Positions 16,035-42,093 of a stretch of 64,000 bases of DNA are shown here, piece by piece (the first letter of the stretch is position 1; each line of letters starts with the position of its first letter). The notes beneath the pieces were generated by a model. That model did not search any database and was not told where the DNA came from. It saw only the letters and a program-made list of their open reading frames with translations. This stretch comes from Bacillus sp. Y1 (GTDB lineage: Bacteria; Bacillota; Bacilli; Bacillales; Cytobacillaceae), in assembly GCF_003586445.1 (NCBI RefSeq), contig NZ_CP030028.1:1192501-1256500 (forward strand), read 5' to 3'. Position numbers and translations under genes: made by a program.

Positions 16035-16482
16035 GCTTGATCAAAAGTGAGGAGGATTTCAACAAAAAAGACAAGGTGAGGGGCGAGTCTTCCCGAATTG
16101 GGGGTTGATTCGGATAGGGAAGTCAAGGAGAAGAAGGAGGTAGTCCGAATGCGGGGTTGATTCGGACAGGAAAGACAAGGAGAAGAGGGACTTAGTCCGA
16201 AACAGGGGTTGATTCGGACAGCAAAGGCAAGGAGAAGAGAGAGTCAGTCCGAATGCAGGGTTGATTCGGACAGCAAAGGTAAGGGGAAGGGTGAGTCAGT
16301 CCGAATACGGGGTTGATTCGGACAGCAAAGGCAAGAAGAAGAAGGAGTCAGTCCGAATAGGGGGGGATTCGGACAGGGAAGGCAAGGAGAAGAGGTAGTC
16401 AGTCCGAATGCAGGGTTGATTCGGACAGCAAAGGCAAGGAGAAGAGGGACTTAGTCCGAAACAGGGGTTCATTTAGACAGAA
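16035..16482. repeat. Tandem array of 52-bp palindromic units
   Basis: Unit starts (GTCCGAAT or variant) fall at 16091, 16143, 16195, 16247, 16299, 16351, 16402 and 16454: spacings 52, 52, 52, 52, 52, 51, 52. Degenerate partial units lie at both ends. Each unit has arms GTCCGAAT and ATTCGGAC separated by 9 nt, then a purine-rich 27-28 nt segment to the next unit. The array fills the gap between the converging ecsC and yhaA genes. The period is not a multiple of 3, there is no ribosome-binding site, and variation is spread along the units. Confidence 0.95.
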
Positions 16483-16539
16483 ATAGGTTCAAAATGCTTT
16501 TAGATGTCTTAAACACAGGCTACTCTACTTTAAAAGGAA

Positions 16540-16566
16540 AAAGCTTGGAGGTTATCTCCGAGCTTT
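16540..16566 (-). terminator. Terminator of yhaA
   Basis: AAAGCTTGGAG / CTCCGAGCTTT, an 11-bp stem with one mismatch and a 5-nt loop, followed on the minus strand by TTTTCCTTTT. It overlaps the stop codon. Confidence 0.8.
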
Positions 16567-17734
16567 ATTTATAGTTAATGGCAGCTGAACCGAGCGTTTT
16601 AGCAGCTACGAGTAAGGCTTGTTCATCAATGTCGAATTTCGGGTGATGATGCGGGTAAGCTACCTCCACGCCAACAGGCTTCGCCCCAGTAAAGAAGAAA
16701 GTTCCTTTTACATGCTGTAGATAATAAGCGAAATCCTCTCCACCCATCTGCAGTTCTGCTTCTTCCACTACTTTGATCTCTTCCATATCATTTGCTAGTT
16801 GAACAAGATACTCAGTTTCTTCTTTATGATTAACAACAGCCGGATATCCTTTTACATACTCATAGGAATACGAGCAATCAGAGGCGATGCAAGTACCTTT
16901 CACAATGCGCTCGATTTCGTCAGCAATAAAATCTCGAAGGTCTTCGTTAAATGTACGGACGGTTCCGATTAATTTTGCTTTATCCGCAATTACGTTAAAG
17001 GCATTGTCTGCGACAAAGGATCCAACGGTTACAACAGCGGACTCTACTGGGCTGACACGTCTGCTTACGATTTGTTGTAAATTGGATACGAGTTGGGCAC
17101 CAACAACAATGGAATCCTTTGTTTTATGTGGCTGTGCTCCGTGTCCACCTTTGCCTTGGATGGTAATCACAAATCGATCTGCTGCTGCCATAATAGGACC
17201 TGTTCGGTATTGAATTTTCCCTGTAGGCTCGCTTGCCCATAAATGCGTACCAAAGATAACATCTACTCCTTCAAGGCAACCTGCTTCAATCATGGATGCC
17301 GCGCCTCCTGGAGCATACTCTTCTGCATGTTGATGAATCATAATATATGTACCGTGAAGTTCATCTTTTAATTCATGGAGTACTTTAGCTAGGATAAGTA
17401 AGGACGCAGTATGACCATCGTGCCCACAAGCATGCATAACTCCTGGAACAGTTGATTTGTATGGAACATCCTTTTCATCCTGAATAGGAAGTGCATCAAA
17501 GTCTGCACGTAAGGCAATTGTTTTTCCAGGATAGTTTCCTTGTATCTTGGCTACTACCCCATTGCCACCGACACCTCTTTGTACTTCCACACCGAGTTTT
17601 TCATAATAAGATGCGATAAAGTTAGCTGTGTTCACTTCCTGAAAAGAAAGCTCTGGATGCTGATGCAAGTATCTTCGAATCTCAACCATTTCAGGATAAT
17701 AATCTTCTAGCTTTGTAAACAGTGTCGTAAGCAA
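16565..17734 (-). CDS. yhaA: YhaA-like M20 amidohydrolase
   Basis: An M20-family metallo-amidohydrolase of about 389 residues related to amino-acid and hippurate deacylases. HQHPELSFQE, the metal-binding GVMHACGHDGHTA and the EEYAPGGAASMIEAG and MGGEDFAYY motifs are intact. Such enzymes cleave N-acyl groups from amino acids; the substrate is unknown. Location next to ecsC matches yhaA in B. subtilis. The longest frame begins at GTG 17746, but that overlaps the AGGAG site; TTG 17734 is better spaced, so the start is uncertain. Confidence 0.85.
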   Translation of the reverse strand: MLTTLFTKLEDYYPEMVEIRRYLHQHPELSFQEVNTANFIASYYEKLGVEVQRGVGGNGVVAKIQGNYPGKTIALRADFDALPIQDEKDVPYKSTVPGVMHACGHDGHTASLLILAKVLHELKDELHGTYIMIHQHAEEYAPGGAASMIEAGCLEGVDVIFGTHLWASEPTGKIQYRTGPIMAAADRFVITIQGKGGHGAQPHKTKDSIVVGAQLVSNLQQIVSRRVSPVESAVVTVGSFVADNAFNVIADKAKLIGTVRTFNEDLRDFIADEIERIVKGTCIASDCSYSYEYVKGYPAVVNHKEETEYLVQLANDMEEIKVVEEAELQMGGEDFAYYLQHVKGTFFFTGAKPVGVEVAYPHHHPKFDIDEQALLVAAKTLGSAAINYK

Positions 17735-17810
17735 ATTAATCCCCACTCCTTTTACTAATTTCAGATAATTATAACATCTTTTTCACTAAAAAATGGTTAT
17801 CTTTGATATG

Positions 17811-17845
17811 AAAAAACGAAAGACTACCTGAAAGGTAGTCTTTCG
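17811..17845 (-). terminator. Terminator of the lactonase-family gene
   Basis: CGAAAGACTACCT / AGGTAGTCTTTCG, a perfect 13-bp stem with a 3-nt loop; on the minus strand it runs into TTTTTTC. Confidence 0.92.
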
Positions 17846-17849
17846 TTCG

Positions 17850-18905
17850 TTAAATAGTTAAAAACTTCACGCAAACGGCATAAGGAACGGTAATGTCAGA
17901 TTGAAGCAGACTAAGTTTACCTGTTTCTTTGTCTCTAGCAAAAAGGACAAGGTTGCCTGACTCTTGATTAGATGCAACAATATACGATTCTGTAGGGTCT
18001 AGTGCAAAGTCACGAGGCCAATCACCTTCTGTTGGTGTATGTTCTAAAAATGAAAGGGAACCATTTTCGTCTGCAACAAAGCTTGCAATACTATTATGTC
18101 CGCGATTTCCAGCGTACACAAAACGTCCATCGGAGCTGATGTGAATCGCGCTTCCTTGATTGTTTTCGGTAAAATCTGAAGGAAGTGTTGAAATCGCTTG
18201 AATTTGATTGAAGCTACCGTTAGTTGAATCGTATTGAAGAACGAGTACTTCACCACTAAATTCTGTCATCACATAAGCGAGTGGTTTTGTTGGATGGAAC
18301 ACAATATGTCTTGGGCCGCTTCCAGGTTTCACAGAAAGTTCATAAACTAGGGATAATTGATCTTCTTTCAGTTCATATGTAAAGATTTTATCAATTCCAA
18401 GTTCAACTGCCACCACGTATTTTCCATCAGGAGTTAGGCCAGAGTAGTGAGTATGAGCTTTCTCCTGTCTAGGATCTGGGCCGCTTCCTGTATGGGCAAC
18501 GCTTGAGGAAGCCGGTTGAATTTCACCCGTTTTTGGGTTTACCTTATGCACTTCAACTGTTCCTTTATGGTAATTTGCGGTAAACAATGCGGTATTGCTA
18601 GGGTTTATCTCTAAGTGACAAGGAGGAGAACCAGCAGACCCTCGATCATTAATTTTTTGAAGCTTACCTGTACCTTCTTCAATAGAAAATGATGTTACCC
18701 CACCAAGATCACCGTTTTTTGAAACGGAATACAGAAATTTGTTATCACCTGTAATAGAAACATAGGTAGGATTTTCTACTTTACCAGCAAGTTCAACCTC
18801 TTCTATTTTTCCAGCTTTTGTGTCTAAAACAAAGCGATAAATCCCTTCACTATCACCTTTTGTGTACGTACCTACATATCCAATTACTTTATCAGCGCTA
18901 CTCAA
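17850..18905 (-). CDS. Lactonase-family seven-bladed beta-propeller protein
   Basis: A 351-residue cytoplasmic protein of the 6-phosphogluconolactonase (Pgl/YkgB-type) beta-propeller family. Family marks include YVGTYTKGDSEGIY at the start, GSPPCHLEINP, DPRQEKAHTHY, GPRHIVFHP, GSAIHISSDGRFVYAGNRGH and GDWPRDFALDP. E. coli Pgl hydrolyses 6-phosphogluconolactone in the pentose phosphate pathway; other members act on carboxy-muconolactones, so the substrate here is open. The start is TTG with GGAGGG six bases upstream. It is divergent from licR. Confidence 0.85.
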   Translation of the reverse strand: MSSADKVIGYVGTYTKGDSEGIYRFVLDTKAGKIEEVELAGKVENPTYVSITGDNKFLYSVSKNGDLGGVTSFSIEEGTGKLQKINDRGSAGSPPCHLEINPSNTALFTANYHKGTVEVHKVNPKTGEIQPASSSVAHTGSGPDPRQEKAHTHYSGLTPDGKYVVAVELGIDKIFTYELKEDQLSLVYELSVKPGSGPRHIVFHPTKPLAYVMTEFSGEVLVLQYDSTNGSFNQIQAISTLPSDFTENNQGSAIHISSDGRFVYAGNRGHNSIASFVADENGSLSFLEHTPTEGDWPRDFALDPTESYIVASNQESGNLVLFARDKETGKLSLLQSDITVPYAVCVKFLTI

Positions 18906-18994
18906 GGCATTCCCTCCAATAAATTAATATACAATGTTATCCTATTCTTACAGTCATTGAAAATCAAGAAGGAAGTCTTATTTTAATTATCAAC

Positions 18995-19023
18995 TTGACA
19001 AGAAATAGAGAGAAATGTTAACT
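18995..19023 (+). promoter_or_regulatory. Candidate sigma-A promoter of licR
   Basis: TTGACA at 18995-19000, 17-bp spacer, then TTAACT as a weak -10. A perfect -35 with a poor -10 would fit an activated or weak promoter. Confidence 0.45.
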
Positions 19024-19095
19024 TTTCAGAAAAGTCCGTAGAACGAATTAAAGCATATTTTAGAAAGAAATAGATTTTAGGGGAGTAGGTTCGAA

Positions 19096-21021
19096 ATGAT
19101 TATTTCTCGTCTCACGATGATACTCGGAGAACTAATGGGAGCGAAGGTGCCTATTACGAGCGAGTATTTAGCAAGCGTTATTAAAGTAACATCAAGAACC
19201 ATTCGTAATGATATGAAAGACCTTCAGGCAATCCTTGAAAAGAACGGTGCAGATATTAAGTCAGTACGAGGAACAGGATACGAACTAGTTGTAAATAATA
19301 ACCAACAGTTTATCACCTTTATAAATGAAGTGTTTCAAGATACGGCTGAAACGAGCGTTGGAAGGCCCGACTCACCTGAAGAACGGATACGGTATATTAT
19401 TACAAGGCTACTTCTAACCAATAAATTTGTAAAGCTTGACCATTTAGCTGATGAAATATTTGTTAGTCGCTCAACGATCTTAAATGACGTAAAGGATATT
19501 AAGAAAATCCTCTCACGGTATGGATTAAGTTTAGAAAAGAAACCTAATTATGGTTTAAGGATTAAAGGTGATGAAGTCAAGGTCCGCTTTTGTATGTCGG
19601 ATTATATTTTTAATAAAAAAAGGGACGAACTTGATATTGTTAATGAACAACTGAATATCCTAACCAAGGAAGAAATTCTAGTGATTCGAAACGTCATATT
19701 AGCGCTTATTAGGGAACATCATATTACCCTTTCTGATGTGGGCTTAAATAATTTGATAATCCATGTAGCAATAGCTTGTAAGCGTATCCGTGAAGGAAAT
19801 CATGTATTATTGTATTCAGATGAACTAAATGAAATCATTGGACAAAAAGAATTTTCTGTTGCAGAAAAAATTGTGAAAAATCTAAGTGAAACCCTTATGG
19901 TTGATTTTCCAGAAAATGAGGTCGCTTATATAGCCATTCATCTTTTAGGTACGAAAATGATTGAAAAATCACCTGGTGAGCAAGTGGAGAAAGTAATTGA
20001 TAATAAAATTGCTCAGTTAGTATCTGACATCCTTGCAAAAATCGATGAAAAGCTGTCATTAGGAATTAGCGAAGATAAGGAACTCTTAGAACAAATGTGT
20101 CTACATATTAAACCAGCAATCAATCGTTACCGTTATGGAATGAACTTGAGAAATCCAATGATTGATGAAATCAAGGCTAATTATCCAGTAGCGTTTCAAG
20201 CAGGGCTTATTGCTGGTAAAGAGATGAAAAAACAACTAAGCATAGATATTGACGAGAATGAAATTGGATACCTTGCCCTCCATATAGGAGTAGCCATGGA
20301 GCGGAAGCAAATCCACCATGGTCCGAAAAGATGCTTAATTGTTTGTGCATCAGGAGTAGGTAGTGCGAGATTGCTTTACTATAAGCTTCAGTCAACCTTT
20401 GGACCAAAGCTTGATATTGTCGATACTACAGAATTTTATAAGCTTCAGCAGATGGATCTACATGATATTGATTTCATTATTAGTACAGTACCTATTCAGC
20501 AAAAAATGTCCATTCCTGTCATCCATGTGAACACATTTTTAGGTGATCAAGATTTAAAAAAAATTAGGTCCGCCGTGTCAGAGCAAACGACATCTCTTGA
20601 GTATACGAGGGAAGAACTAGTTTTCTTACAACAAGCACTTTTATCAAAAGAAGAAGTGTTATCTTATATGTTTTCGAATTTGAAAGAAATGGGTTTGATA
20701 GATGATGTTTTCATTGAATCAGTGAAGGAGAGAGAATCTCTGTCTTCCACATCCTTTGGGAATTTTGTTGCTATTCCACATCCATTAAATCCATTAACAG
20801 ACGAGACATTTTGGTCAATTTGTACCTTACAAAAGCCGATAGAGTGGGACGATAAACTTGTACAATTTGTTTGTTTACTTAGTGTTGAAAAGGATAGTAG
20901 CGGAGATTTACAAAGAATGTACGATATGCTCGGTAAAGTGATCGATGATCGTGAGTTAGTACAACAATTAATAAAATCAAAGTCCTATCATGAATTTAAA
21001 GACACCTTCTTAAAGGTTTAG
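19096..21021 (+). CDS. licR: LicR/ManR-type PTS-controlled transcriptional activator
   Basis: A 641-residue modular regulator. Two N-terminal helix-turn-helix regions (SRTIRNDMKDLQ; HLADEIFVSRSTILNDVKDI) are followed by two PTS regulation domains with conserved His (IAIHLLGTK; LALHIGVAMER), an EIIB-like domain with C417 (VCASGVGSA) and a C-terminal EIIA-like domain with H562 (IPHPLNPL). Such activators sense PTS phosphorylation through these residues and turn on the neighbouring sugar operon. The genes that follow encode a lactose/cellobiose-family PTS and a phospho-beta-glucosidase, so the inducer is probably an oligo-beta-glucoside. GGGGAG precedes the ATG. Confidence 0.88.
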   Translation: MIISRLTMILGELMGAKVPITSEYLASVIKVTSRTIRNDMKDLQAILEKNGADIKSVRGTGYELVVNNNQQFITFINEVFQDTAETSVGRPDSPEERIRYIITRLLLTNKFVKLDHLADEIFVSRSTILNDVKDIKKILSRYGLSLEKKPNYGLRIKGDEVKVRFCMSDYIFNKKRDELDIVNEQLNILTKEEILVIRNVILALIREHHITLSDVGLNNLIIHVAIACKRIREGNHVLLYSDELNEIIGQKEFSVAEKIVKNLSETLMVDFPENEVAYIAIHLLGTKMIEKSPGEQVEKVIDNKIAQLVSDILAKIDEKLSLGISEDKELLEQMCLHIKPAINRYRYGMNLRNPMIDEIKANYPVAFQAGLIAGKEMKKQLSIDIDENEIGYLALHIGVAMERKQIHHGPKRCLIVCASGVGSARLLYYKLQSTFGPKLDIVDTTEFYKLQQMDLHDIDFIISTVPIQQKMSIPVIHVNTFLGDQDLKKIRSAVSEQTTSLEYTREELVFLQQALLSKEEVLSYMFSNLKEMGLIDDVFIESVKERESLSSTSFGNFVAIPHPLNPLTDETFWSICTLQKPIEWDDKLVQFVCLLSVEKDSSGDLQRMYDMLGKVIDDRELVQQLIKSKSYHEFKDTFLKV

Positions 21022-21057
21022 AGGTTGGTGTCTTTTCTTTTAAAAGAGAAACCTGAT

Positions 21058-21071
21058 TGTAAGCGATTACT
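21058..21071 (+). promoter_or_regulatory. cre-like site before the first EIIB gene
   Basis: TGTAAGCGATTACT fits the catabolite-responsive element pattern WTGNAANCGNWNNCW at every fixed position. It lies 29 bp before the EIIB start, in the gap after licR, and suggests CcpA control. Confidence 0.6.
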
Positions 21072-21099
21072 TTTTAATGTTAGTAAAGGGGGATTTGTG

Positions 21100-21405
21100 A
21101 TGAATATTTTATTATGCTGTGCAGCTGGTATGTCAACAAGCTTACTAGTAAGAAAAATGAATCAAACTTCAATGGATCAGGGGGAAAACAATAAAATCTG
21201 GGCGGTACCCGGTGATGTTGTTTATAAACATATTAAAGACGCAGACGTTATCCTACTAGGTCCACAAGTTCGTCATTTACTTCCTGAACTTAAAAAGCTT
21301 GGAGAAGAAAAAGGAATTCCAGTGGATGTGATCAACACTGTTCATTATGGAACTTGTAATGGTGTTGAAGTTTTAAAATATGCAAAACTATTAAAAAATA
21401 AATAA
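21100..21405 (+). CDS. PTS lactose/cellobiose EIIB, copy 1
   Basis: A 101-residue EIIB of the lactose/chitobiose family: [17 protein letters not shown] with the phosphorylated cysteine C7 before AAGMST, then [12 protein letters not shown] and HYGTCNG. EIIB passes phosphate from EIIA to the incoming sugar on EIIC. It follows licR, has its own terminator and is about 60 percent identical by eye to the second EIIB at 21655. The frame is open upstream, but GGGGG before ATG 21100 selects this start. Confidence 0.9.
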
Positions 21406-21409
21406 AGCA

Positions 21410-21444
21410 AAAAACAGGGTGATATAATATGCTCCCTGTTTTTT
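21410..21444 (+). terminator. Terminator after EIIB copy 1
   Basis: AAAAACAGGG / CCCTGTTTTT, a 10-bp stem with a 14-nt loop and more T after it. It separates licR-EIIB1 from the rest of the locus. Confidence 0.85.
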
Positions 21445-21496
21445 TGTGTGAAAAATGAATTCAATAGTCATTTCCTTTGAGAAACGGAAAAATGAT

Positions 21497-21583
21497 AGAT
21501 GTAAGTGAAAGCGTTTTACATCTACAATAAAGACATCAAGAAGAGACAACAAGGCAAAACAATAAAAAGTAAGACTTCTTGAT
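21497..21583 (+). promoter_or_regulatory. Two inverted repeats upstream of the main PTS operon
   Basis: AGATGTAA (21497-21504) and TTACATCT (21516-21523) form a perfect palindrome around GTGAAAGCGTT, which also resembles a cre half-site. Downstream, ATCAAGAAG (21535-21543) pairs with CTTCTTGAT (21575-21583) across 31 nt. The first is a candidate LicR or CcpA operator, the second a leader hairpin or second operator. Both lie in the 246-bp gap before the operon. Confidence 0.5.
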
Positions 21584-21654
21584 ATCAGTCAATCATTCAC
21601 TTAATCGCTCTCAATGCTTAAGAGTGTAACTTAAAATATTAGGAGGAATTAATG

Positions 21655-21957
21655 ATGAACATCTTATTATGTTGTGCGGCAGGTATGTCTACAAGTTTAC
21701 TAGTAACAAAAATGGAAGCGGCTGCAAAGGAACAAGGACTTGAGTCAAAAATTTGGGCAGTAAGTTCAGACCAAGTAAAAGCGAATATCGATCAAGCAGA
21801 TGTATTGCTTCTTGGACCACAAGTACGTTACCTATTACCTCAAATGCAACAACTTGGAAAAGAAAAGAATATCCCGGTTGATTCTATCAACCCAATTCAC
21901 TACGGAATGTGTAATGGGGCAGAAGTGTTAAAAACAGCTGTAGCACTAAAAAACTAA
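21655..21957 (+). CDS. licB: PTS lactose/cellobiose EIIB, copy 2 (LicB-like)
   Basis: A 100-residue [24 protein letters not shown]..., with the active cysteine C7 and the same GPQVRYLLP and HYGMCNG features as copy 1. AGGAGG is eight bases upstream of this ATG; another ATG at 21652 is possible. It is the first gene of the EIIB-EIIC-EIIA-GH1-HPr-HAD run, so it is probably the main transport EIIB. Which specific beta-glucoside is carried cannot be read from the sequence. Confidence 0.9.
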
Positions 21958-21990
21958 ATATCTCTTTAAAAGAGAAGGGAATGAAACGTG

Positions 21991-23322
21991 ATGAATAAGT
22001 TTTTAGGTTTCCTTGAATCAAAGTTTATGCCTTTTGCTGGTAAATTAGCCGCACAAAGACATTTAGGTGCTTTAAAAGATGGAATTATCCTAGCGATGCC
22101 AATGATTATTATCGGTTCTGTATTCCTAATTTTAGGTTTCCTACCGATTCCTGGTTACGCCGATTTCATGGCAAGTGTGTTCGGAGATCAATGGTTAGCA
22201 AAATTAATGTATCCAACAGATGCAACGTTTAACATGATGGGTCTAATCGCTGCATTCGGTATTGCATATCGTCTAGCTGAGAGGTATGGCATTGACGCCA
22301 TTACAGCTGGGGTAATCTCACTGTGTGCGTTCTTACTTGCTACACCATTCAATGTGCCGTTTACTCCAGATGGAGCAACAGAAGCGATCGCAGTTGGAGG
22401 AGCAATTCCAGTTGCATTTATGGGAAGTAAAGGACTTTTCGTAGCGATCCTAATCGGTTTATTCTCAACAGAAGTGTATAACTTCATTCTTAAGAAAAAT
22501 ATTGTTATTAAAATGCCAGATAGCGTTCCACCGGCAGTAAGTAAATCGTTTGTTGCACTTGTTCCTGGTTTTATTGTTATCACTATTATCTTCTTAATTC
22601 GTTTAGTAATTGAGTACTTTGGAATTAGCAGTATTCATGACGTGGTTCAATTAGTACTTGGTAAGCCACTTGGATTATTAGGCGGAAGCTTAATCGGTTC
22701 GATTGTTGCCTACATGCTTATTATGATGCTTTGGTCAGCAGGTCTTCACGGAACAAACATCGTTGCAGGTGTACTAAGCCCAGTTTGGTTAATGGCAACA
22801 GAAGAAAACCAAATTGCGTTCCGTGCAGGTGAAGAATTACCAAATATCTTTACATCTCAATTCTTTGAAGTATTCGTCAACATCGGTGGTACTGGTGCTA
22901 CATTTGGTCTAGCTATGCTTATGCTTTTCTGGGCAAAGAGCCAACAAATGAAGGCGCTTGGTAAATTATCGGCTGGTCCTGGAACATTCATGATCAACGA
23001 ACCAATCATTTTTGGTACACCAATCGTAATGAACCCATTACTAATCGTACCATTCTTCTTAACACCGATCGTTCTAATCATTGTAACGTACTACTCAATG
23101 AAGTTAGGTTTAGTTGCGAAGCCAGCAGGTATCGCGATTCCTTGGACAACGCCGCCAATTATCGGTGGATACCTAGCAACTGGAGGTAAAATTTCAGGTG
23201 CGGTTATGCAGGCTGTCAACGTCGTTATCGCTCTAGCTATTTACTTCCCGTTCTTCAGAATGTGGGATAAGATGAAGCAACAAGAAGAGGGCGGAGTAAA
23301 TAATTCATCAAAAGTGAGTTAA
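21991..23322 (+). CDS. licC: PTS cellobiose/oligo-beta-glucoside EIIC permease
   Basis: A 443-residue EIIC of the lactose/cellobiose family with about ten membrane segments. It starts MNKFLGFLESKFMPFAGKLA, then AQRHLGALKDGIILAMPMII, and carries the substrate-loop motifs GLHGTNIV, GPGTFMINEPIIFGTPIVMNP and AIPWTTPPIIGGYLATGG. The domain translocates the sugar, phosphorylated by EIIB. GTG 21988 is also in frame; ATG 21991 with AAGGGA upstream is preferred. A strong hairpin lies between it and the EIIA gene. Confidence 0.93.
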   Translation: MNKFLGFLESKFMPFAGKLAAQRHLGALKDGIILAMPMIIIGSVFLILGFLPIPGYADFMASVFGDQWLAKLMYPTDATFNMMGLIAAFGIAYRLAERYGIDAITAGVISLCAFLLATPFNVPFTPDGATEAIAVGGAIPVAFMGSKGLFVAILIGLFSTEVYNFILKKNIVIKMPDSVPPAVSKSFVALVPGFIVITIIFLIRLVIEYFGISSIHDVVQLVLGKPLGLLGGSLIGSIVAYMLIMMLWSAGLHGTNIVAGVLSPVWLMATEENQIAFRAGEELPNIFTSQFFEVFVNIGGTGATFGLAMLMLFWAKSQQMKALGKLSAGPGTFMINEPIIFGTPIVMNPLLIVPFFLTPIVLIIVTYYSMKLGLVAKPAGIAIPWTTPPIIGGYLATGGKISGAVMQAVNVVIALAIYFPFFRMWDKMKQQEEGGVNNSSKVS

Positions 23323-23347
23323 TTAAGCGTTAAAAAATAGCAGAAGG

Positions 23348-34915: not shown

Positions 34916-34925
34916 AATTTTTTAA

Positions 34926-34952: not shown

Positions 34953-34957
34953 CACTA

Positions 34958-34986: not shown

Positions 34987-35001
34987 ACTGGTTATACAAA
35001 A

Positions 35002-35024
35002 TGACCATTTTGTTCATTTGGTCA
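35002..35024. promoter_or_regulatory. Operator of YhgD at its own gene
   Basis: TGACCA-N11-TGGTCA, a 23-bp near-palindrome between promoter and yhgD start. Its reverse complement matches the site at 35637-35659 before yhgE at nearly every position, including the inner AATGAACA. A shared site at both genes is the pattern expected of an autoregulated TetR repressor. Confidence 0.75.
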
Positions 35025-35041
35025 GTTATTGAGGTGAAGAT

Positions 35042-35614
35042 ATGGGGATTGATCGAAAAAAGCTAATTGTTGATGCTGCGACAAAGTCTTTTTCGCAGTT
35101 TGGCTATAAAGCGACGACCATAGACCAAGTTGCAAAAATTGCAAATGTTGGAAAAGGAACGATCTATACCTTTTTTAAAAACAAGGAAGAGCTGTTTGAT
35201 GAGATTATATCTAGCTTGATAAAGGAGCTAAAAGTAACAGCAGATGAGGCATTTTTAGGTGATTTACCATTTCATGAAAAGCTGCATCAGGCATTGTATC
35301 AAATCCTTGAATTTCGGATGAGCCACCAGCTTTCAATTAAGCTTTTTCAGGAGGCAAGAGAAATTGGTACACCTGCAGTAGTAGATGTGATTAATCGGAT
35401 GGAAAATAATATATTGAGAAATATTGAAGAACGAGTAGCCAAAGCCATTGAAACAGGAAGTATACAATCTTGTGACCCAAAGGTAACGGCGTTTGTTATG
35501 CTGAAGCTTTATATTGCTTTAATTTTCGATTGGGAAAAAAATAATCCACCACTTGAAAAAGACGAGATAGCCAAGCTATTCGAACAATATATATTTAAGG
35601 GTTTAGCCAAATAA
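35042..35614 (+). CDS. yhgD: YhgD, TetR-family regulator
   Basis: A 190-residue TetR repressor with an N-terminal helix-turn-helix (FGYKATTIDQVAKIANVGKG ... TFFKNKEELF) and a helical ligand-binding domain. In B. subtilis yhgD precedes yhgE as here. The two 23-bp matching palindromes at 35002 and 35637 very probably are its operators, so it should repress itself and yhgE. The ligand is unknown. GAGGTGAAG precedes the ATG. Confidence 0.88.
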   Translation: MGIDRKKLIVDAATKSFSQFGYKATTIDQVAKIANVGKGTIYTFFKNKEELFDEIISSLIKELKVTADEAFLGDLPFHEKLHQALYQILEFRMSHQLSIKLFQEAREIGTPAVVDVINRMENNILRNIEERVAKAIETGSIQSCDPKVTAFVMLKLYIALIFDWEKNNPPLEKDEIAKLFEQYIFKGLAK

Positions 35615-35627
35615 GCCCTTCTTTTTT
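35597..35627 (+). terminator. Terminator overlapping the yhgD stop
   Basis: AAGGGTTTA / ATAAGCCCTT imperfect stem followed by CTTTTTT. yhgE then starts with its own operator, so it is probably a separate transcript. Confidence 0.6.
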
Positions 35628-35636
35628 GTTATAAAA

Positions 35637-35659
35637 TGACCAAATGAACATTTTAGTCA
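35637..35659. promoter_or_regulatory. Operator of YhgD before yhgE
   Basis: TGACCA-N11-TAGTCA, 23 bp, the counterpart in inverse orientation of the site at 35002. It lies 28 bp before the yhgE start. Confidence 0.75.
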
Positions 35660-35686
35660 ATATGAATATAAAGGGGAGAATAACAA

Positions 35687-37843
35687 TTGAAAAATAATCT
35701 TCTAAAAGAAGAGATCGCAGCGGTGTTTCGAAATCGGAAACTATTGATCCCACTTATCGCCGTACTTTTTATTCCTATTCTATATAGTGGGATGTTTTTA
35801 TGGGCATTTTGGGATCCATATGATCACTTGAAGGACCTTCCAGTAGCGATTGTAAATGAAGATGATGGTGCAACTTATGAAGGAAAAGAACTTCATCTAG
35901 GTGATGACTTAGTCGACAAGTTAAAGGAAAGTCAAGATTTTCATTTTGAGTTTGTTGATCGTACAGTTGCAAACGATGACCTAGAAAACCAAAAATATTA
36001 TATGATCGTCGAGATACCTGATAATTTTTCTAAAAATGCGACGACACTTTTAGATGAAAACCCAGAGAAGCTTTCACTTACGTATATACCAAATGAAGGA
36101 TATAACTTCTTAGCTGCACAAATTGGCGGTACAGCAATTGAAAAGATTAAAGCGTCTCTTTCAGCAAAAGTAACAGAAACATATGCGGAAAGTATGTTTG
36201 ACAAAGTAGGAGAACTTGCGGATGGAATGACGAAAGCAAGTGAAGGTGCGAATGATTTGAGCACTGGAACAGCTGATCTTTTGGCAGGGACTTCAAACTT
36301 TCATGAAAAGCTGACCCAATTTTCAAATGGAACAGAGAAGTTTTCGGAAGGTATGACAAGTGCCACAAACGGGACAATTGCCATTAATAAAGGTGCGTCC
36401 GATTTATCAGCAGGTTTAGGACAATTAACCAATGGCCAAACCGAGCTTGTTACAGCCTCAAAGAGAATTCAATCGGGACTAGGCAGTTTAAATGAAGGAA
36501 TTACAGATGTAAACACAGGGTTAGAAACTGTGAATGATAAGGTTCCGGCGTTAATCGATGGAACAAGTGAGTTAATGAAAGGGGCAGCAACACTTGAAAC
36601 CTCACTTGCTGAATGGAAAAAGGGTGCCGAGGCGGTTAATGGTGGCGTAAAGGCACTCACTCAATCCTTACAAGCGGTGATCTCACAAATGCCTGAAGGC
36701 CAGGAGAGAGCTGTTCTTGAACAAACACTCGCCTCTTTAGATACAAACACCCAAATACTAGCAGAAAAATCGGCTCTTTTGTCCGTGGGTGCAAGCAATC
36801 TTGAAAATGGCATGGGATCCTTACTAGCAGGACAAAAAGAACTTCAAGGTGGATTACATCAATTAGAAGAAGGTACGAATGCTTTAGTAACAGGATCTTC
36901 AGAACTTTATGCGGGCCAAACAACGTTCGAGTCTGGCATGGAATACTTTCAACAAAAGCTTACTGAAGCCTCAAATGGTGCCCAAAAGATTAGTGATGGT
37001 ACAAATGGGTTAGTTTCCGGGGTTACAGAGCTATCGGAGGCTTCTAAAACCATTGCATCAAGTGCCAGTCAGTTACAAGAAGGTAGCGATAAAATTGTCG
37101 ATGGAAACAATAAGCTACTTGACGGTAGCAATGAACTGTCTACAAAGCTAGTTGAAGGAGCAGACAAAGCATCCAGCGTGGATGCTACGGATAAAACATT
37201 TGATATGATGGCACAGCCAGTCGAAGTGAAGGAAAAGAAAGTGAATGAAGTATCAAACTACGGTACAGGGTTCGCTCCATACTTCCTTTCATTAGGATTG
37301 TTCGTAGGAGCTTTACTTCTATCAATTGTGTTTCCTTTAAAGGAGCCAGCATCTATTCCTAAGAGTGGAATGAACTGGTTCATAAGCAAATTTTCTATTA
37401 TTGGTATAGTTGGTGTATTACAGGGGATTGTAGCAGCCACCGTGTTACTACTAGGTCTAGGATTACAGGTTGAAAGTACCGTTTACTTTTATCTATTCAC
37501 CATCATCACTAGTATCACGTTTGTGGCATTAATTCAATTATTGGTCACAACACTTGGAGATCCAGGTCGTTTTGTCGCCATTATCGTTCTCATTTTACAA
37601 TTAACAACAAGTGCAGGAACTTTTCCATTGGAGCTTATTCCAAACGCATTACAACCGTTTAATTTATTATTGCCAATGACTTATTCGGTTCAAGGATTTA
37701 AAGCGGTTATTTCAAGTGGGGATTACTCATTCATGTGGCATAACGCATATATCCTATTATCGTTTGCTGTTGTATGTGCGATTGGTACCATTCTTTATTT
37801 TTCAAAAATGCATAAGCGCCAGTTTCGTGTAATGGCAGAATAA
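35687..37843 (+). CDS. yhgE: YhgE/Pip-family membrane protein
   Basis: A 718-residue member of the YhgE/Pip family (Pip is the phage infection protein of Lactococcus). One N-terminal membrane helix is followed by about 500 extracellular residues full of short repeats of the type G-x-x-x-L-x-x-G-x-x-x-L, then about five C-terminal membrane helices resembling ABC-2 permeases. The family is linked to secretion and phage adsorption; the role here is unknown. The start is TTG with GGGGAG eight bases upstream. It is controlled by the YhgD operator just before it. Confidence 0.88.
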   Translation: MKNNLLKEEIAAVFRNRKLLIPLIAVLFIPILYSGMFLWAFWDPYDHLKDLPVAIVNEDDGATYEGKELHLGDDLVDKLKESQDFHFEFVDRTVANDDLENQKYYMIVEIPDNFSKNATTLLDENPEKLSLTYIPNEGYNFLAAQIGGTAIEKIKASLSAKVTETYAESMFDKVGELADGMTKASEGANDLSTGTADLLAGTSNFHEKLTQFSNGTEKFSEGMTSATNGTIAINKGASDLSAGLGQLTNGQTELVTASKRIQSGLGSLNEGITDVNTGLETVNDKVPALIDGTSELMKGAATLETSLAEWKKGAEAVNGGVKALTQSLQAVISQMPEGQERAVLEQTLASLDTNTQILAEKSALLSVGASNLENGMGSLLAGQKELQGGLHQLEEGTNALVTGSSELYAGQTTFESGMEYFQQKLTEASNGAQKISDGTNGLVSGVTELSEASKTIASSASQLQEGSDKIVDGNNKLLDGSNELSTKLVEGADKASSVDATDKTFDMMAQPVEVKEKKVNEVSNYGTGFAPYFLSLGLFVGALLLSIVFPLKEPASIPKSGMNWFISKFSIIGIVGVLQGIVAATVLLLGLGLQVESTVYFYLFTIITSITFVALIQLLVTTLGDPGRFVAIIVLILQLTTSAGTFPLELIPNALQPFNLLLPMTYSVQGFKAVISSGDYSFMWHNAYILLSFAVVCAIGTILYFSKMHKRQFRVMAE

Positions 37844-37850
37844 AAAATAA

Positions 37851-37876
37851 CCCCAGTCAGTTGACTGGGGCCTTTA
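37851..37876. terminator. Terminator of yhgE
   Basis: CCCCAGTC / GACTGGGG perfect stem with 4-nt loop, then CCTTTATT; an A-rich left flank could also serve yhfH on the other strand. Confidence 0.75.
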
Positions 37877-37891
37877 TTGTAAACTATGAAT

Positions 37892-38026
37892 CTATATGTT
37901 TGTTACATCCATGCAATGCTCGCACTTATTGCCATAGCATTCATGTTGTTCTTCAATTTTATTCCCACATTGAACACATTCCTTCGGTGGTAAGTTCCTG
38001 AAAAATTCAACAATGCTCTCAAACAT
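37892..38026 (-). CDS. yhfH: YhfH family small zinc-ribbon-like protein
   Basis: A 44-residue protein starting MFESIVEFFRNLPPKECVQC, with cysteines in CVQC and CEHC and two further Cys/His between them, a likely zinc site. It matches YhfH of B. subtilis in size, cysteine pattern and place beside yhfI. GGGGGA is upstream of the ATG. The role is unknown. Confidence 0.8.
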   Translation of the reverse strand: MFESIVEFFRNLPPKECVQCGNKIEEQHECYGNKCEHCMDVTNI

Positions 38027-38186
38027 ATAAGTTCCCCCTATTATGGTGTTTGAAACAGATTAATTATTAATTAAATTGTATTATAACAGTTTAGGTGTGT
38101 CAATCATTGTTTTACCTATTTTTCATAAATATATAAAAAAGCTATAATAAACGATAGATATAATAAAAAGCGGAGGGAATTATTCA

Positions 38187-38921
38187 ATGAAGCTCACAAC
38201 GATAGGTTTTTGGGGTGGTTATCCCAAAGCAAATGAAGCTAGCACAGGCTATGTGTTAGAACATAACGGTTTTCAATTATTGGTTGATTGTGGAAGCGCG
38301 GTTTTGTCTAAGTTACAAAATTATTACCAGCCTGAAGAACTAGATGCGGTTGTATTATCTCATTATCATGCCGATCATATCGCAGACATTGGGGCCTTAC
38401 AACATGCTCGATTGATTCAAGGGTTTTTAGGGAGTCAGATGAATACATTACCGATTTATGCACATGATGGCGATTCATATGAATTTTCTAAGTTAACGTA
38501 CAAATCCATAACAAAAGGGATTGCATATGATCCGAATGCTGAATTGAAAGTAGGTCCATTTGTTATTCGATTTTTATTAACAAAGCATCCGGTTCCTTGC
38601 TATGCGATGAGATTTGAGGCTGATGGCAAAGCTCTTGTATACACAGCAGATACTTCGTTTATTGAGGAGTTTGTTTCATTTAGTGAGGGAGCCGAAGTTC
38701 TATTATGTGAATGTAATTTCTATGGAAATCAGGATGGTAGTGGAGCCGGGCATATGAACAGCTTTGATGCTGGAAAGCTTGCAGCTAGGGCAAATGTTAA
38801 GCAGCTCGTGTTAACCCATCTTCCACACTATGGAGAACTACAGCAGTTAGTAGACGAAGCAAAGCAACATTATAATGGCCCAACAGGCTTGGCCCACACC
38901 GGACAAGTGATTGAATTATAA
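38187..38921 (+). CDS. yhfI: YhfI, metallo-beta-lactamase-fold hydrolase
   Basis: A 244-residue MBL-fold enzyme of the RNase Z/ElaC-like branch. The zinc motif SHYHADH (HxHxDH) is intact, followed by a later His (LLTKHPVPC), the bridging Asp (YTADTSF) and a C-terminal LTHLPH. It begins MKLTTIGFWGGYPKANEAST as YhfI does. It has all ligands for two metals, so it is probably an active hydrolase; the substrate is unknown. GGAGGG precedes the ATG. lplJ follows after 12 bp, likely in one transcript. Confidence 0.88.
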   Translation: MKLTTIGFWGGYPKANEASTGYVLEHNGFQLLVDCGSAVLSKLQNYYQPEELDAVVLSHYHADHIADIGALQHARLIQGFLGSQMNTLPIYAHDGDSYEFSKLTYKSITKGIAYDPNAELKVGPFVIRFLLTKHPVPCYAMRFEADGKALVYTADTSFIEEFVSFSEGAEVLLCECNFYGNQDGSGAGHMNSFDAGKLAARANVKQLVLTHLPHYGELQQLVDEAKQHYNGPTGLAHTGQVIEL

Positions 38922-38933
38922 GGAGAGAGAAGT

Positions 38934-39923
38934 ATGTTATTTATTGATAATAAAGGGATCACAGATCCAAGAGTAAATTTAGCGATTGAAGAATATTGCC
39001 TGAAAAATTTAAACATAGATGAAACGTATCTTCTTTTCTACATAAATGAACCATCTATTATCATTGGCAAAAATCAAAATACGATTGAAGAAATAAATAC
39101 GGACTACGTTGAGGAAAACGGTATTCTTGTAGTCCGTAGGCTTTCAGGTGGTGGTGCTGTTTACCATGACTTAGGAAATTTGAATTTTAGCTTTATCACC
39201 AAGGACGATGGAGAAAGCTTTCATAATTTTAAAAAGTTTACGGATCCGGTCGTTGAAGCTTTGCATGAACTAGGAGTACAGGCAGAATTAAGTGGGAGAA
39301 ACGACATTGTGGTTGAAGGTAGAAAGATTTCTGGGAATGCACAGTTTTCTACAAAAGGACGAATGTTCAGTCATGGAACGCTTATGCTTGATTCAGAAAT
39401 TGACCATGTTGTATCAGCATTAAAGGTACGTAAGGATAAAATTGAGTCAAAAGGAATCAAGTCGATTCGAAGCAGAGTCGCTAATATTTCTGAGTTTTTA
39501 TCAGAAAAGGTTTTAATGGAAGAGTTTCGTTCCTTGCTTCTAGAGAAGATCTTTGGTGGTACAGAGAATGTAAATGAGTATGTGTTAACAGAAGAAGACT
39601 GGAAGAATATACACGAACTTTCAAAAGAGCGCTATCAAAATTGGGAATGGAATTACGGGAAGTCCCCCAAGTTTAATTTCCAGCATTCGCACCGATTCCC
39701 AGTGGGGCATATTGATGTCAGGTTAGAAGTGAATAAAGGGGTTATTGAAAGCTGCAAAATTTATGGTGATTTCTTTGGAGTTGGAGATGTCACCGATATA
39801 GAAGAAAAACTAACGGGAATTCGTTACGATAAAGCTGTGATACAATTAGCGTTGGACGATGTAAATATTAAACATTATTTTGGTAATGTAACAAAAGAAG
39901 ATTTTTTACAATTAATTTATTAA
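38934..39923 (+). CDS. lplJ: LplJ, lipoate-protein ligase
   Basis: A 329-residue lipoate-protein ligase A family enzyme which attaches free lipoate, through lipoyl-AMP, to dehydrogenase E2 subunits and GcvH. RRLSGGGAVYHDLGNLNFSF is the lipoyl-AMP binding motif, then GRNDIVVEGRKISGNAQ with the catalytic Lys, and SHGTLMLD. The C-terminal accessory domain is present. It matches LplJ (YhfJ) of B. subtilis, which also follows yhfI. AAGGAGAGAG precedes the ATG. Confidence 0.94.
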   Translation: MLFIDNKGITDPRVNLAIEEYCLKNLNIDETYLLFYINEPSIIIGKNQNTIEEINTDYVEENGILVVRRLSGGGAVYHDLGNLNFSFITKDDGESFHNFKKFTDPVVEALHELGVQAELSGRNDIVVEGRKISGNAQFSTKGRMFSHGTLMLDSEIDHVVSALKVRKDKIESKGIKSIRSRVANISEFLSEKVLMEEFRSLLLEKIFGGTENVNEYVLTEEDWKNIHELSKERYQNWEWNYGKSPKFNFQHSHRFPVGHIDVRLEVNKGVIESCKIYGDFFGVGDVTDIEEKLTGIRYDKAVIQLALDDVNIKHYFGNVTKEDFLQLIY

Positions 39924-39941
39924 CATATTGGGGGAATATGA

Positions 39942-40928
39942 ATGGCAATTTTAGTAACAGGTGGAGCCGGCTATATTGGTAGCCACACAGTGGTAGAGCT
40001 TTTGAATCATGGAGAAGAAGTAGTGGTTGTAGACAATTTACAAACCGGTCATCTCCCAGCGGTAAAGGGCGCAACTTACTATCAAGTGGATTTACGCGAT
40101 TCGAAAGCATTAAGTGAAGTGTTTTCAAAGCACTCGATTGAAGCGGTGATTCATTTTGCGGCGAGTTCTCTAGTAGGAGAAAGTGTAGAGAAGCCGCTCA
40201 TGTATTACGAAAATAATCTTATTGCTTCACACTCATTGGTCTCTGTTATGGTGGAGCATCATGTGAAAAAAATTGTGTTTTCATCAACAGCTGCAACATA
40301 TGGGGAGCCGAAAGAGGTTCCGATTTCAGAGGAGTCAGAAACGTCTCCCACGAATCCATATGGAGAAACAAAGCTTGCTATGGAAAAAATGTTCCGTTGG
40401 TGTGATGGGGCTTACGGCTTAAAGTCGATATCCTTGCGCTATTTTAATGCCGCTGGGGCTCACCCGGACGGAATTATTGGAGAGGACCACTCACCTGAAA
40501 CTCATTTAATCCCAATAATATTGCAGGTAGCATTAGGTCAGAGAGAGCATATTGGTATCTATGGTGATGATTATCCGACTGAGGACGGAACATGTATCCG
40601 CGATTATATTCATGTCATGGACCTTGCTAACGCTCACTGGTTAGCTTTAGAATATTTGCGTAAAAATGAAGTAAGTGATGTGTTCAACTTAGGAAATGGC
40701 CGAGGCTTTTCGGTAAAAGAGGTAATCGAAACAGCAAGAACAGTTACAAAGCATGAAATTCCAGCTGTAGTTAGTCCACGTCGAGCGGGAGATCCAGCTG
40801 TATTAATTGCATCATCTGGAAAAGCTCAGCAAACATTAGGCTGGCAGCCAAAGTATAACCAATTAGAAACCATTATTGAAACCGCATGGAATTGGCATCA
40901 GAACAATCCTGGTGGTTATGAGAAATAG
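39942..40928 (+). CDS. galE: GalE, UDP-glucose 4-epimerase
   Basis: A 328-residue extended short-chain dehydrogenase. The NAD-binding GGAGYIGSH is at residues 7-15, the catalytic Tyr/Lys pair at Y140-x3-K144 (NPYGETK), and the sugar-binding FNAAGAHPDG and ED-GTCIRDYIHV are present. It interconverts UDP-glucose and UDP-galactose, supplying galactose for cell-surface sugars. GGGGGAATATGA precedes the ATG. It follows lplJ by 18 bp and is not part of this neighbourhood in B. subtilis, so it is a local rearrangement. Confidence 0.94.
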   Translation: MAILVTGGAGYIGSHTVVELLNHGEEVVVVDNLQTGHLPAVKGATYYQVDLRDSKALSEVFSKHSIEAVIHFAASSLVGESVEKPLMYYENNLIASHSLVSVMVEHHVKKIVFSSTAATYGEPKEVPISEESETSPTNPYGETKLAMEKMFRWCDGAYGLKSISLRYFNAAGAHPDGIIGEDHSPETHLIPIILQVALGQREHIGIYGDDYPTEDGTCIRDYIHVMDLANAHWLALEYLRKNEVSDVFNLGNGRGFSVKEVIETARTVTKHEIPAVVSPRRAGDPAVLIASSGKAQQTLGWQPKYNQLETIIETAWNWHQNNPGGYEK

Positions 40929-40937
40929 TATGTAGGT

Positions 40938-40963
40938 GGGGCTCCGAGGGATGGAGCCCCTTT
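40938..40963. terminator. Terminator between galE and the coat gene
   Basis: GGGGCTCC / GGAGCCCC perfect 8-bp stem with a 7-nt loop, then TTTGTGTGTT. Confidence 0.8.
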
Positions 40964-40968
40964 GTGTG

Positions 40969-41664
40969 TTATTGAAGGATGCGGTTTTGCTGGTTGCTTT
41001 GCATATTTTGCATTCCCTGTGTACCTTGGATACCTTGGGAACCACCTGATGTAGCGAACGAATTAAGCAGCTGTTGCGTGTCTTCTTCTCTCAGCTGAGG
41101 AACTTGATAAAATTCCTTTTTGTTTTGATATAAGAAGATTTCGTACGCCATTTCCAAATAATTAGGGATACTATCCTGTAGCACGCGTCGAACAATCGGA
41201 TTCGTAGCTTCACCAGCAGCCATCGTCATCGTTTGAGCAGATGACTTCATGCAGCCAAGCATGAGAGAAGACAAACACTTATCGTCAATTTCGGCTGCAG
41301 ACTGCTTTGGTTTAGTCGGTTGGGAGGGTTTAATACCATAAACAACATCATTTGATTGCTTCATCATATAGCTAGAAGTTGGGTGACTTGGATCTTGTCC
41401 AGTTTTAAAACACTCGACCAACACATTATATTGATCCGTAATAAATTGACGTTGGCGAACGACAATATCCTTTAACTCGGGATCCTTAATCTGTTGCTCG
41501 AACATTAAATACTGATCAATCGTACCAAGAGTTCCCGAAATCACCTCATGCACATCAAGAATCTCATGTGCCCCGTGATTCACTGTTCTTGCCATATTCG
41601 GTGAAGCCATCATATTATTTGTAGAAGCAGTTTGCATATTGTTTTGCTGTTGTTGTGTTATCAT
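40969..41664 (-). CDS. CotF/YhcQ-like spore coat protein
   Basis: A 231-residue protein with the CotF-type ferritin-like fold signature (HEILDVHEVISGTLGTIDQY; LKDIVVRQRQFITDQYNVLV) and low-complexity Gln/Asn/Met/Gly ends (MITQQQQNNMQ; QGIQGTQGMQNMQ). It resembles YhcQ/CotF coat proteins, made late in the mother cell and placed on the spore. GGGG and GAGACGG precede ATG 41664; further upstream the frame continues but without a start signal. The second tandem array lies upstream of its start. Confidence 0.82.
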   Translation of the reverse strand: MITQQQQNNMQTASTNNMMASPNMARTVNHGAHEILDVHEVISGTLGTIDQYLMFEQQIKDPELKDIVVRQRQFITDQYNVLVECFKTGQDPSHPTSSYMMKQSNDVVYGIKPSQPTKPKQSAAEIDDKCLSSLMLGCMKSSAQTMTMAAGEATNPIVRRVLQDSIPNYLEMAYEIFLYQNKKEFYQVPQLREEDTQQLLNSFATSGGSQGIQGTQGMQNMQSNQQNRILQ

Positions 41665-41790
41665 CCGTCTCAACCCCCACTTTCGGATTTGTACAGCTAA
41701 ATACCGTACGTGTCTATTATGGTGAAAGATGTGGGGGAGCATACGGGGTGAAAATTTGGGAAAAATGGTAGTTTGGAGAAGATAAATGTA

Positions 41791-42093
41791 TTTATGACGT
41801 GATAGGCGAAAAAGCAGGAGTGTTGGCGTCATAAGAAAAAGTTTATGACGTGAGAGCACAGAAAAACAGGGGTGTTGGCGTCGTAAGAAAAGGTTTATGA
41901 CGTGAGAGCAAGGAAAAACAGGGGTGTTGGCGTCATAAGAAAAAGTTTATGACGTGAGAGCGAGAAAAACAGGGGTGTTGGCGTCATAAGAAAAGGTTTA
42001 TGACGTGAGAGCAAGGAAAAACAGGGGTGTTGGCGTCATAAGAAAAGGTTTATGACGTGAGAGCGAGAAAAACAGGGACGTCCGCGTCATAAA
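41791..42093. repeat. Tandem array of 51/52-bp palindromic units
   Basis: Units begin with TTTATGACG at 41791, 41842, 41894, 41946, 41997 and 42049: spacings 51, 52, 52, 51, 52. Each has arm TTATGACG, an about 28-nt segment TGAGAGC...CAGGGGTGTTGG, arm CGTCATAA, then a 9-nt A-rich spacer. The last unit diverges in its middle. There is no coding signal. The array lies between the 3' end of the NERD gene and the start of the coat gene. Confidence 0.95.

Follow-up and report, generated by a model that had tools for sequence, protein, structure and literature searches.

Tandem 52-bp arrays with differing arms share a dyad geometry in Bacillus sp. Y1 and its relatives

Tandem arrays in the genome of Bacillus sp. 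Y1 and in related genomes are built on one plan, in which each unit of about 52 bp bears a dyad of roughly 27 bp that is mostly odd-centred and whose outer ends favour NG[TG][CA]. The arms of the dyad are constrained, the arrays tend to lie past the terminators of genes, with convergent neighbours overrepresented relative to background gaps, and two arm families replace each other on one grid at an orthologous site. It is roughly an even call whether the arrays are phased strings of operators for putative dimeric DNA-binding proteins, with one dimer per five helical turns, which is the explanation we favour. Protein binding, side-by-side assembly and a role in the chromosome are what we infer from these observations. 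The two arrays of the window, by which we mean the whole stretch of 64,000 nucleotides that was analysed, have the following surroundings.

15278 to 16003, plus strand: EcsC family gene, neighbour of array 1 (Pfam PF12787, E 6e-87)
15980 to 16018, plus strand: stem-loop followed by a T-run, 3' of the upstream gene (read from the sequence)
16093 to 16477, plus strand: array 1, about seven 52-bp units, with degenerate units at both ends
16540 to 16566, no strand assigned: stem-loop AAAGCTTGGAGGTTATCTCCGAGCTTT, a likely terminator that separates array 1 from the convergent gene downstream of it (read from the sequence)
16565 to 17746, minus strand: M20 peptidase gene, neighbour of array 1 (Pfam PF01546, E 3e-41)
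40969 to 41859, minus strand: Coat F domain ORF, neighbour of array 2 (Pfam PF07875, E 3e-17)
41791 to 42092, plus strand: array 2, about six 51-52-bp units
42096 to 42128, no strand assigned: stem-loop AAGCTCAATATA...TATATTGAGCTT, a likely terminator that separates array 2 from the minus-strand gene at its 3' end (read from the sequence)
42128 to 43039, minus strand: NERD domain gene, neighbour of array 2 (Pfam PF08378, E 4e-18)

Array 1 was called by TRF at 16093-16460 (period 52, 7.1 copies). Its unit is a 25-bp dyad, GTCCGAAT-N9-ATTCGGAC, followed by a purine-rich linker of 27 nt, and the coordinates give a layout of arm 8, gap 9, arm 8 and linker 27, with the exception of one unit (16351-16374) that has a gap of 8. 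TRF placed array 2 at 41791-42092 (period 52, 5.9 copies), where the unit consists of a 24-bp dyad, CGTCATAA-N8-TTATGACG, and a linker of 27-28 nt. The window contains GTCCGAAT and TTATGACG 11 times each, where 1.35 and 1.69 occurrences, respectively, would be expected; each count was reached in 0 of 100 shuffles. The original prediction had assigned both arrays one architecture. The 51-52-bp grid and the inverted 8-bp arms are indeed common to both, but array 1 has a short gap of 9 and array 2 one of 8. The order arm - 28 - arm' - 9 proposed for array 2 is the same repeat read from another starting phase; in the phase of array 1, its short gap is 8, not 9, and its dyad is even-centred. A GGGG run had been put forward as a further common feature. 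In array 1 this run is located within the 9-nt gap, in array 2 within the long linker, and many other GTCCGAAT arrays of the genome are without it, so a single shared G-run motif does not characterise the class. The stem-loop and T-run at 15980-16018 are likely an intrinsic terminator that separates the upstream gene from array 1. The GTG start listed for the Coat F ORF falls inside array 2, and the true start is therefore probably further in.

The period common to both arrays is more than a coincidence. Arm-blind TRF (period of at least 30, at least three copies) was run on the window and on 120 stretches, each of 20 kb, taken from eight genomes, and 23 of the 29 arrays listed had a period of 51-53 or a multiple of it, which answers the concern that many other periods would be found. 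With gaps of 6-12 allowed, the gap was 9 in 89 of 93 dyads of the own genome; these dyads and the arm-blind scans provide the unbiased figures. Loci fetched by pattern had a gap of 9 in 1141 of 1182 dyads and a spacing of 52 in 899 of 1054, of 51 in 88 and of 53 in 45, counts that are partly built in because the fetch pattern fixed the arms, a gap of 9 and a period of 50-54. One array was divided over two loci (L101/L097). A uniform spacing of 51 or 53 bp is seen in some arrays, so that phase across long arrays is not strict, and this counts against reading them as phased operators. The two-unit GTCCGAAT pattern was present in at least 26 organisms, from more than one genus, among the matches listed. 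A scan of the phylum found it in G000 alone of 398 genomes, in a sample with two other genomes of the family of G000. That genome carries GTCCGAAT, CGTCATAA and GGGCACTAAA arrays, and G031 has at least eight unit types. At the orthologous site of array 2, three relatives have a 52-bp array with different arms, which indicates that the grid, not one sequence, is kept. The predicted class of fixed geometry and differing arms thus holds, with unrelated-looking families on a 52-bp grid within one genome, in relatives without GTCCGAAT and at one orthologous site. None of the arrays examined lies inside a longer ORF, and 63 of 142 were set aside as overlapping stop-free ORFs made largely of array. 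Coding repeats were rejected, since 52 is not divisible by three and the ORFs across arrays are stop-free through composition.

Repeats of this size have been described before. Subirana and Messeguer published a study in 2021, which had a predecessor in 2020. The 2021 study deals with tandem repeats in Bacillus whose size is constant (52 or 20-21 nt) but whose sequence varies, and whose function is unknown; those of 51-53 nt are noncoding, with several families per genome, and few periods besides 20-21 nt accompany them (PMC8161180). The original prediction, which knew of no named element class of this description, is not supported on this point. Arrays 1 (7.1 copies) and 2 (5.9) agree with the published class in having a period of 51-53 nt and at least four copies, in the presence of several families of one size and different sequence per genome (G000; G031), and in being noncoding, with a period that is not a multiple of three. 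The families are called species-specific in that paper, a reported and not a defining property, and the GTCCGAAT pattern, with at least 26 organisms among the matches listed, does not share it. Its main text does not contain "palindrom" or "hairpin", yet it notes that a single repeat often has short signals "and their reverse", and the published B. oceanisediminis consensus 79_52_5 contains TTCGGAC and GTCCGAA (PMC8161180). Literature searches and a word check of this main text did not find the dyad rule in print. CRISPR arrays are similar in that a partly palindromic block alternates regularly with a spacer of fixed length, but the linkers here are near-identical within an array rather than unique, many arrays occur per genome, and a Pfam scan of six neighbour ORFs found no cas gene; a CRISPR array was consequently rejected.

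The rule for the dyad rests on parity, span and outer ends. Among 23 family representatives, the centre was odd in 16, even in 3 (array 2 included) and tied in 4, and the even-centred families count against the operator reading. The span profile of 27 units peaks at 25 (z 14.9) and 27 (z 12.8), with even spans at z -1.7 to 1.0, and 26 published units give the same profile (25, z 16.2; 27, z 13.8); the published set has 27 units, of which alcalophilus_41, a near-copy of alcalophilus_11, was omitted from this profile and from the positive outer-end test below. Taken singly, many published units are not above their shuffles, and 16 of our own units run beside the published set also had a weak even-span signal (26, z 2.5; 28, z 2.7). 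Once the register was set to span 27 and 9 columns, both sets were positive for NG[TG][CA] ends: 24 of 46 arms had them, where shuffles gave 2.5 (maximum 7.8 of 300), as did 22 of 52 published arms, where shuffles gave 2.5 (maximum 6.7). An earlier test in another register (span 25 or 27, 8 columns) was negative, with 4 of 46 against 2.7 shuffled. These common ends, which could come from shared descent, supersede the description of arms of different families as unrelated. Nor is the sequence of the palindrome free, as had been suggested: the GTCCGAAT arm is the same in at least 26 organisms, and within the unit variation is lower in the arms than elsewhere. For 95 GTCCGAAT arrays, mean within-array diversity was 0.019 in arms, 0.118 in the loop and 0.092 in the linker, with arms below linker in 93. 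Other families gave 0.033, 0.090 and 0.079 in 12 arm-blind arrays (15 entered, 3 had too few units), with arms below linker in 10 (Wilcoxon p 0.016). Arms are more variable than linkers in L171 and L119, which counts against the operator reading.

Arrays tend to be placed at gene ends. At 53 of 116 gene 3' ends beside arrays, an intrinsic terminator separates the stop codon from the array, and at 10 of 116 one stands on the far side of the array (2 of 348 when shuffled). The gene context of 99 arrays was convergent in 30 and divergent in 12, compared to 45 and 100 of 330 background gaps. With respect to replication, the purine-rich strand was the leading strand in 28 of 32 arrays tested; this test took arrays already located and left out L209 (G001, near the terminus) and L239. 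A symmetric dyad does not explain this purine skew, which was counted against the operator reading.

If the arrays are strings of operators, they would act as DNA-level elements, offering dyad-symmetric sites to putative sequence-reading dimers. The suggestion in the original prediction that a protein may read the arms survives in this form, on a helically phased grid. With sites spaced at 52 bp, which is five turns at 10.4 bp, adjacent dimers would be on the same face of the helix and could assemble side by side. The outer bases of the half-site would be common to the class, and the inner bases, which would define the family, may be recognised by paralogous or specificity-shifted proteins. 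Since the arrays lie in untranscribed spacers past terminators, such an assembly would organise the chromosome or provide insulation at gene ends, and would not regulate a given gene. The CIRCE operator of HrcA, a 9-9-9 inverted repeat of 27 bp, is also odd-centred. This likeness is in geometry alone, as CIRCE is a single promoter operator of other sequence and is not tandem. A fuller version, which we hold with more doubt than belief, is a satellite-chromatin system, with dozens of phased arrays per chromosome in silent gene-end spacers, oriented with replication. Each array would be coated by a dimer of one diversifying putative family that contacts the constant outer bases of the 27-bp odd-centred dyad, and inner specificity would change, so that arm families swap at a site on a constant 52-bp grid.

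It is unlikely that the arrays are selfish or mobile repeats, like REPs, whose dyads are recognised, spread and amplified by a transposase-type or other enzyme, with host function secondary or absent. Exact GTCCGAAT dyads are patchy among relatives (0 to 93 per genome), and one genome has at least 23 dispersed arrays. There is one clear presence/absence site, at 1.416 Mb, where G003 and G004 have a single terminator sequence and no array, and G000 and G002 have about 27-42 bp of terminator sequence on both sides of the array. Long flanking direct repeats accompany 3 of 99 arrays against 0.2% of shuffled pairs, which favours mobility, but they are limited to these 3 arrays, so a general target-site duplication was rejected. 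REP/BIME elements (GTAG- and CGTC-tagged) are also short intergenic palindromes that favour 3' ends and convergent pairs, with several families per species (Di Nocera 2013, PMC3733652). As described there, one end of a REP bears an unpaired tag, GTAG or CGTC, and REPs occur dispersed or as dimers, whereas the arrays here have outer bases paired on both sides and repeat in strict tandem at 52 bp. Y1_Tnp, the domain of the REP transposase, has one match in G000 and does not track the dyads across 61 genomes (12 of 13 with GTCCGAAT dyads, 39 of 48 without), and a REP transposase was dropped from consideration. Array 1 had no match in plasmid or phage collections, and the sole viral_contigs match (L323) looks like an unrelated TGTCCGAA-rich repeat; an origin from either was rejected. 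Mobility alone also leaves a fixed 52-bp period over unrelated arms unexplained.

Subirana and Messeguer consider a chromosome role as one option and RNA elements as a second (PMC8161180). We find it still less probable that the arrays are transcribed and function as hairpin strings, either as sponges or as small RNAs. Transcription of 52-nt repeats in B. coagulans was reported from RNA-seq, which counts against the operator reading (PMC8625621), and strand-asymmetric purine-rich linkers would remain unfolded between hairpins. However, most arrays lie past the terminator of the neighbouring gene, and their own terminators are not in excess (11 of 77 in the direction of the purine strand, 7 of 77 in the opposite). 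Hairpin-type covariation is absent from the arms, with 6 both-sided Watson-Crick changes against 498 one-sided, and G-U is not preferred (G-U 127, A-C 130), which disfavours the idea that only the fold matters. RNA loops would allow both parities and several lengths, but parity and gap are nearly fixed here, and the window had no Rfam match, so a known RNA family was rejected. Neutral satellites, in which slippage or unequal exchange amplifies chance units and replication mechanics set the period, are the most improbable: unit number varies among relatives at the site of array 1, where G001 has about nine, G004 two and G003 one or two that are decayed, but the arm constraint strains this reading, arms are common to more than one genus, and the same samples also contain neutral arrays, whose periods are different (119, 195, 45).

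To the 2021 description the present analysis adds the dyad, its span and parity, the outer ends, a multi-genus family, the arm swap and the position past terminators. It is difficult to see how a repeat length of five helical turns could be kept while the sequence varies, unless some structure reads the geometry of the DNA. The dyad rule (span of about 27 bp, odd centre, ends NG[TG][CA]) provides a concrete probe for a pull-down. If such a protein is found, it would reveal a hitherto unrecognised layer in how a large group of soil bacteria organise their chromosomes.

Both tandem arrays of the window were recovered with TRF, and their arm counts greatly exceed chance. Once placed in phase, they have a common layout of arm, short gap, inverted arm (together a dyad) and linker. 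The unit is GTCCGAAT-N9-ATTCGGAC plus 27 nt in array 1 and CGTCATAA-N8-TTATGACG plus 27–28 nt in array 2, for which the original prediction had given a short gap of 9, one too many.

Tandem arrays and stem-loops, positions in the window
16093 to about 16477: array 1, genuine tandem array (TRF)
41791–42092: array 2, genuine tandem array (TRF)
15980–16018: stem-loop between gene end and array 1 (sequence)
16540–16566: stem-loop between gene end and array 1 (sequence)
42096–42128: stem-loop between gene end and array 2 (sequence)

The window occupies 1192501–1256500 of one 5028825-bp contig. In this genome, exact dyads (GTCCGAATN{6,12}ATTCGGAC) number 93, with a gap of 9 in 89, and the backward control of the pattern had no matches. 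These dyads are grouped in many arrays on a 52-bp grid, and array 2 has relatives at eight more sites (nine matches in total). TRF without fixed arms (arm-blind) was applied to 40 stretches of 20 kb spread evenly over the genome plus the window, to 20 stretches each of two relatives with GTCCGAAT dyads (G001 and G009), and to 40 stretches from five genomes without them. By hand count, 23 of 29 arrays (period ≥30, ≥3 copies) had a period of 51–53 bp or a multiple; the others had periods of 119, 195, 54 and 45 bp, and two of 40 bp (20-bp unit TTTATTTGCGATT). Three genomes (G031, G028, and G023) lack GTCCGAAT yet hold 52-bp arrays with different arms, while none were seen in TRF samples of 0.14 Mb of G014 and 0.12 Mb of G026. 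Because 51–53-bp periods dominate this survey, including genomes without GTCCGAAT, the likeness of the two window arrays is a property of a class and not chance.

The class is already known, and the window arrays add new members. Subirana and Messeguer (PMC8161180) described a 52-nt class and a 20–21-nt companion class in 176 Bacillus genomes. The genome studied here also has a second class that agrees with the companion, with a unit of about 20 bp containing TTTATTTGCGATT, periods of 40, 60 and 80, and a length of two helical turns. Two further repeats were seen: a 119-bp unit (L143:15864-16358; 4.2 copies, 98% identity) and a 125-bp unit of G001, present in 2.2 copies, which includes a tRNA 5'-half-like stretch, GTAGCTCAGTCGGTAGAGCA (L204:4297-4574).

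Arrays of the TTTATTTGCGATT class, by fetched DNA stretch
L140:19198-19387: ~20-bp-unit array
L158:2367-2555: ~20-bp-unit array
L169:8650-8780: ~20-bp-unit array
L174:14877-15174: ~20-bp-unit array
L009:912-1245: ~20-bp-unit array

In a collection of genome contigs, the two-unit GTCCGAAT pattern matched at least 119 stretches from at least 26 organisms, counted from titles; hosts among the matches listed include Neobacillus, Mesobacillus, Robertmurraya, Peribacillus, Aquibacillus, Ammoniphilus, Natribacillus, and Texcoconibacillus. A thin sample of 398 phylum genomes contained it once, in the strain's own genome. At least one GTCCGAAT dyad occurs in 13 of 61 relatives, and twice a rich and an empty member fall within one genus (23 dyads in G009 versus 0 in G033; 81 in G030 versus 0 in G006). 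The single dyads in G004, G035, and G052 carry little weight, since control patterns also matched once each in two genomes; that of G035 is located within a degenerate array. G052, a genome from another family, also has a lone perfect palindrome with 11-bp arms (CAGTCCGAATC/GATTCGGACTG; L253:5690-5735) and no array around it.

Arrays lie between genes, often past their ends. With ORFs called heuristically, 99 of 140 arrays had one on each side, and none lay within a longer ORF. Flanks were convergent in 30, tandem in 57 and divergent in 12, against 45, 185 and 100 of 330 background gaps. An intrinsic terminator separates stop codon and array at 53 of 116 array-facing gene 3' ends (shuffled, 2/348), and lies on the far side of the array at 10 of the 116; both window arrays follow the terminator-then-array pattern, with three stem-loops. 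Where replication termini were placed by skew (G000, the strain's own genome, G001, and G009), purines are enriched on the leading strand at 28 of the 32 arrays located (p 1.9e-5), the exceptions being L241, L147, and two in L236. This bias exceeds the usual chromosomal skew: leading-strand purine content is 0.525 in the genome's own intergenic DNA and well above other intergenic DNA in array linkers, and it reaches ≥0.66 in 8 of 23 own arrays versus 0 of 167 own intergenic segments (≥200 nt).

Arrays also come and go, and their arms are replaced, at orthologous sites. The array 1 family has about nine units at its site in G001, two in G004, and a decayed remnant in G003. At the array 2 site, G002 carries the CGTCATAA family, and G001, G003, and G004 have instead a 52-bp array with arms GGTAACC/GGTTCCC, which begins at the identical base after the common flank AAATGGTAGTT and has similar linkers (GTGAG..CAAAGAAAAA). 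A site at 1.416 Mb holds an array between two copies of a terminator sequence (~27–42 bp) in G000 and G002; the sequence is single in G003 and G004, both array-free there. At L213, G001 and G004 have an array, and G000 and G003 a short terminator region instead. That the arrays are mobile REP-like repeats is unlikely in our estimation; long flanking direct repeats accompany 3 of 99 arrays.

The array between the two terminator copies (L164:8280-9095, with L316, L317, and L315) looks like an insertion that duplicated a long stretch of its target. In G001, the 1.416 Mb terminator has a different insertion of ~1.7 kb, bordered by short repeats (CATAACA; L318:2170-2290, L321:1170-1520). The array at L057:629-1192 sits between 64-bp imperfect direct repeats.

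The dyad follows a rule across families. Complementarity scored at every span in 27 arm-blind units was highest at 25 (z 14.9) and 27 (z 12.8), with even spans flat (z −1.7 to 1.0), and in 26 published consensus units the maxima fell at these two spans as well (z 16.2 for 25, z 13.8 for 27), with z from −0.5 to 2.0 at even spans, although these z values exaggerate independence, because adjacent odd spans have one centre and some units belong to the same family. Dyad centres in 23 family representatives were odd in 16, even in 3 and tied in 4. Many units are laid out 9-9-9, such as GGTCGTCAA-N9-TTGACGACC (G023) and TGTCCAATA...TAACGGACA (G031); array 2, even-centred, is one of few exceptions. 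When units are aligned in a fixed register of span 27, 24 of 46 arms start NG[TG][CA] (300 shuffles: mean 2.5, max 7.8), and among published arms 22 of 52 do so (shuffled mean 2.5, max 6.7); an earlier outer-end test in a different register was negative (4/46 arms).

Arms are the constrained part of the unit. Per-site variation in 95 GTCCGAAT arrays is 0.019 in arms, 0.118 in loops and 0.092 in linkers. The corresponding values for 12 arm-blind arrays from other families are 0.033, 0.090 and 0.079, with L171 and L119 as exceptions. Among 1182 dyads, 498 arm changes were one-sided (G-U 127, A-C 130, transversions 241) and 6 were two-sided Watson-Crick changes. These changes fit the prediction of double-stranded sequence reading and not the upkeep of RNA hairpins, and the constancy of gap and parity agrees with this; we consider it quite unlikely that the arrays are strings of such hairpins. 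Neutral satellites are very unlikely.

In the literature searched, which excluded the 2020 J. Bacteriol. paper of Subirana and Messeguer, we found no report of the dyad rule, the common outer ends, the multi-genus family, the location past terminators, the leading-strand purines, or the arm swap. With middling confidence, we interpret each array as a phased series of operators to which putative dimeric DNA-binding proteins would bind. Weighed against this are the even-centred families, the uniform 51- or 53-bp spacing of some arrays, and repeat transcription in B. coagulans, as reported in PMC8625621. If the operator interpretation is correct, each family would have a reader protein, which may assemble cooperatively along the array and could have a role in the chromosome.
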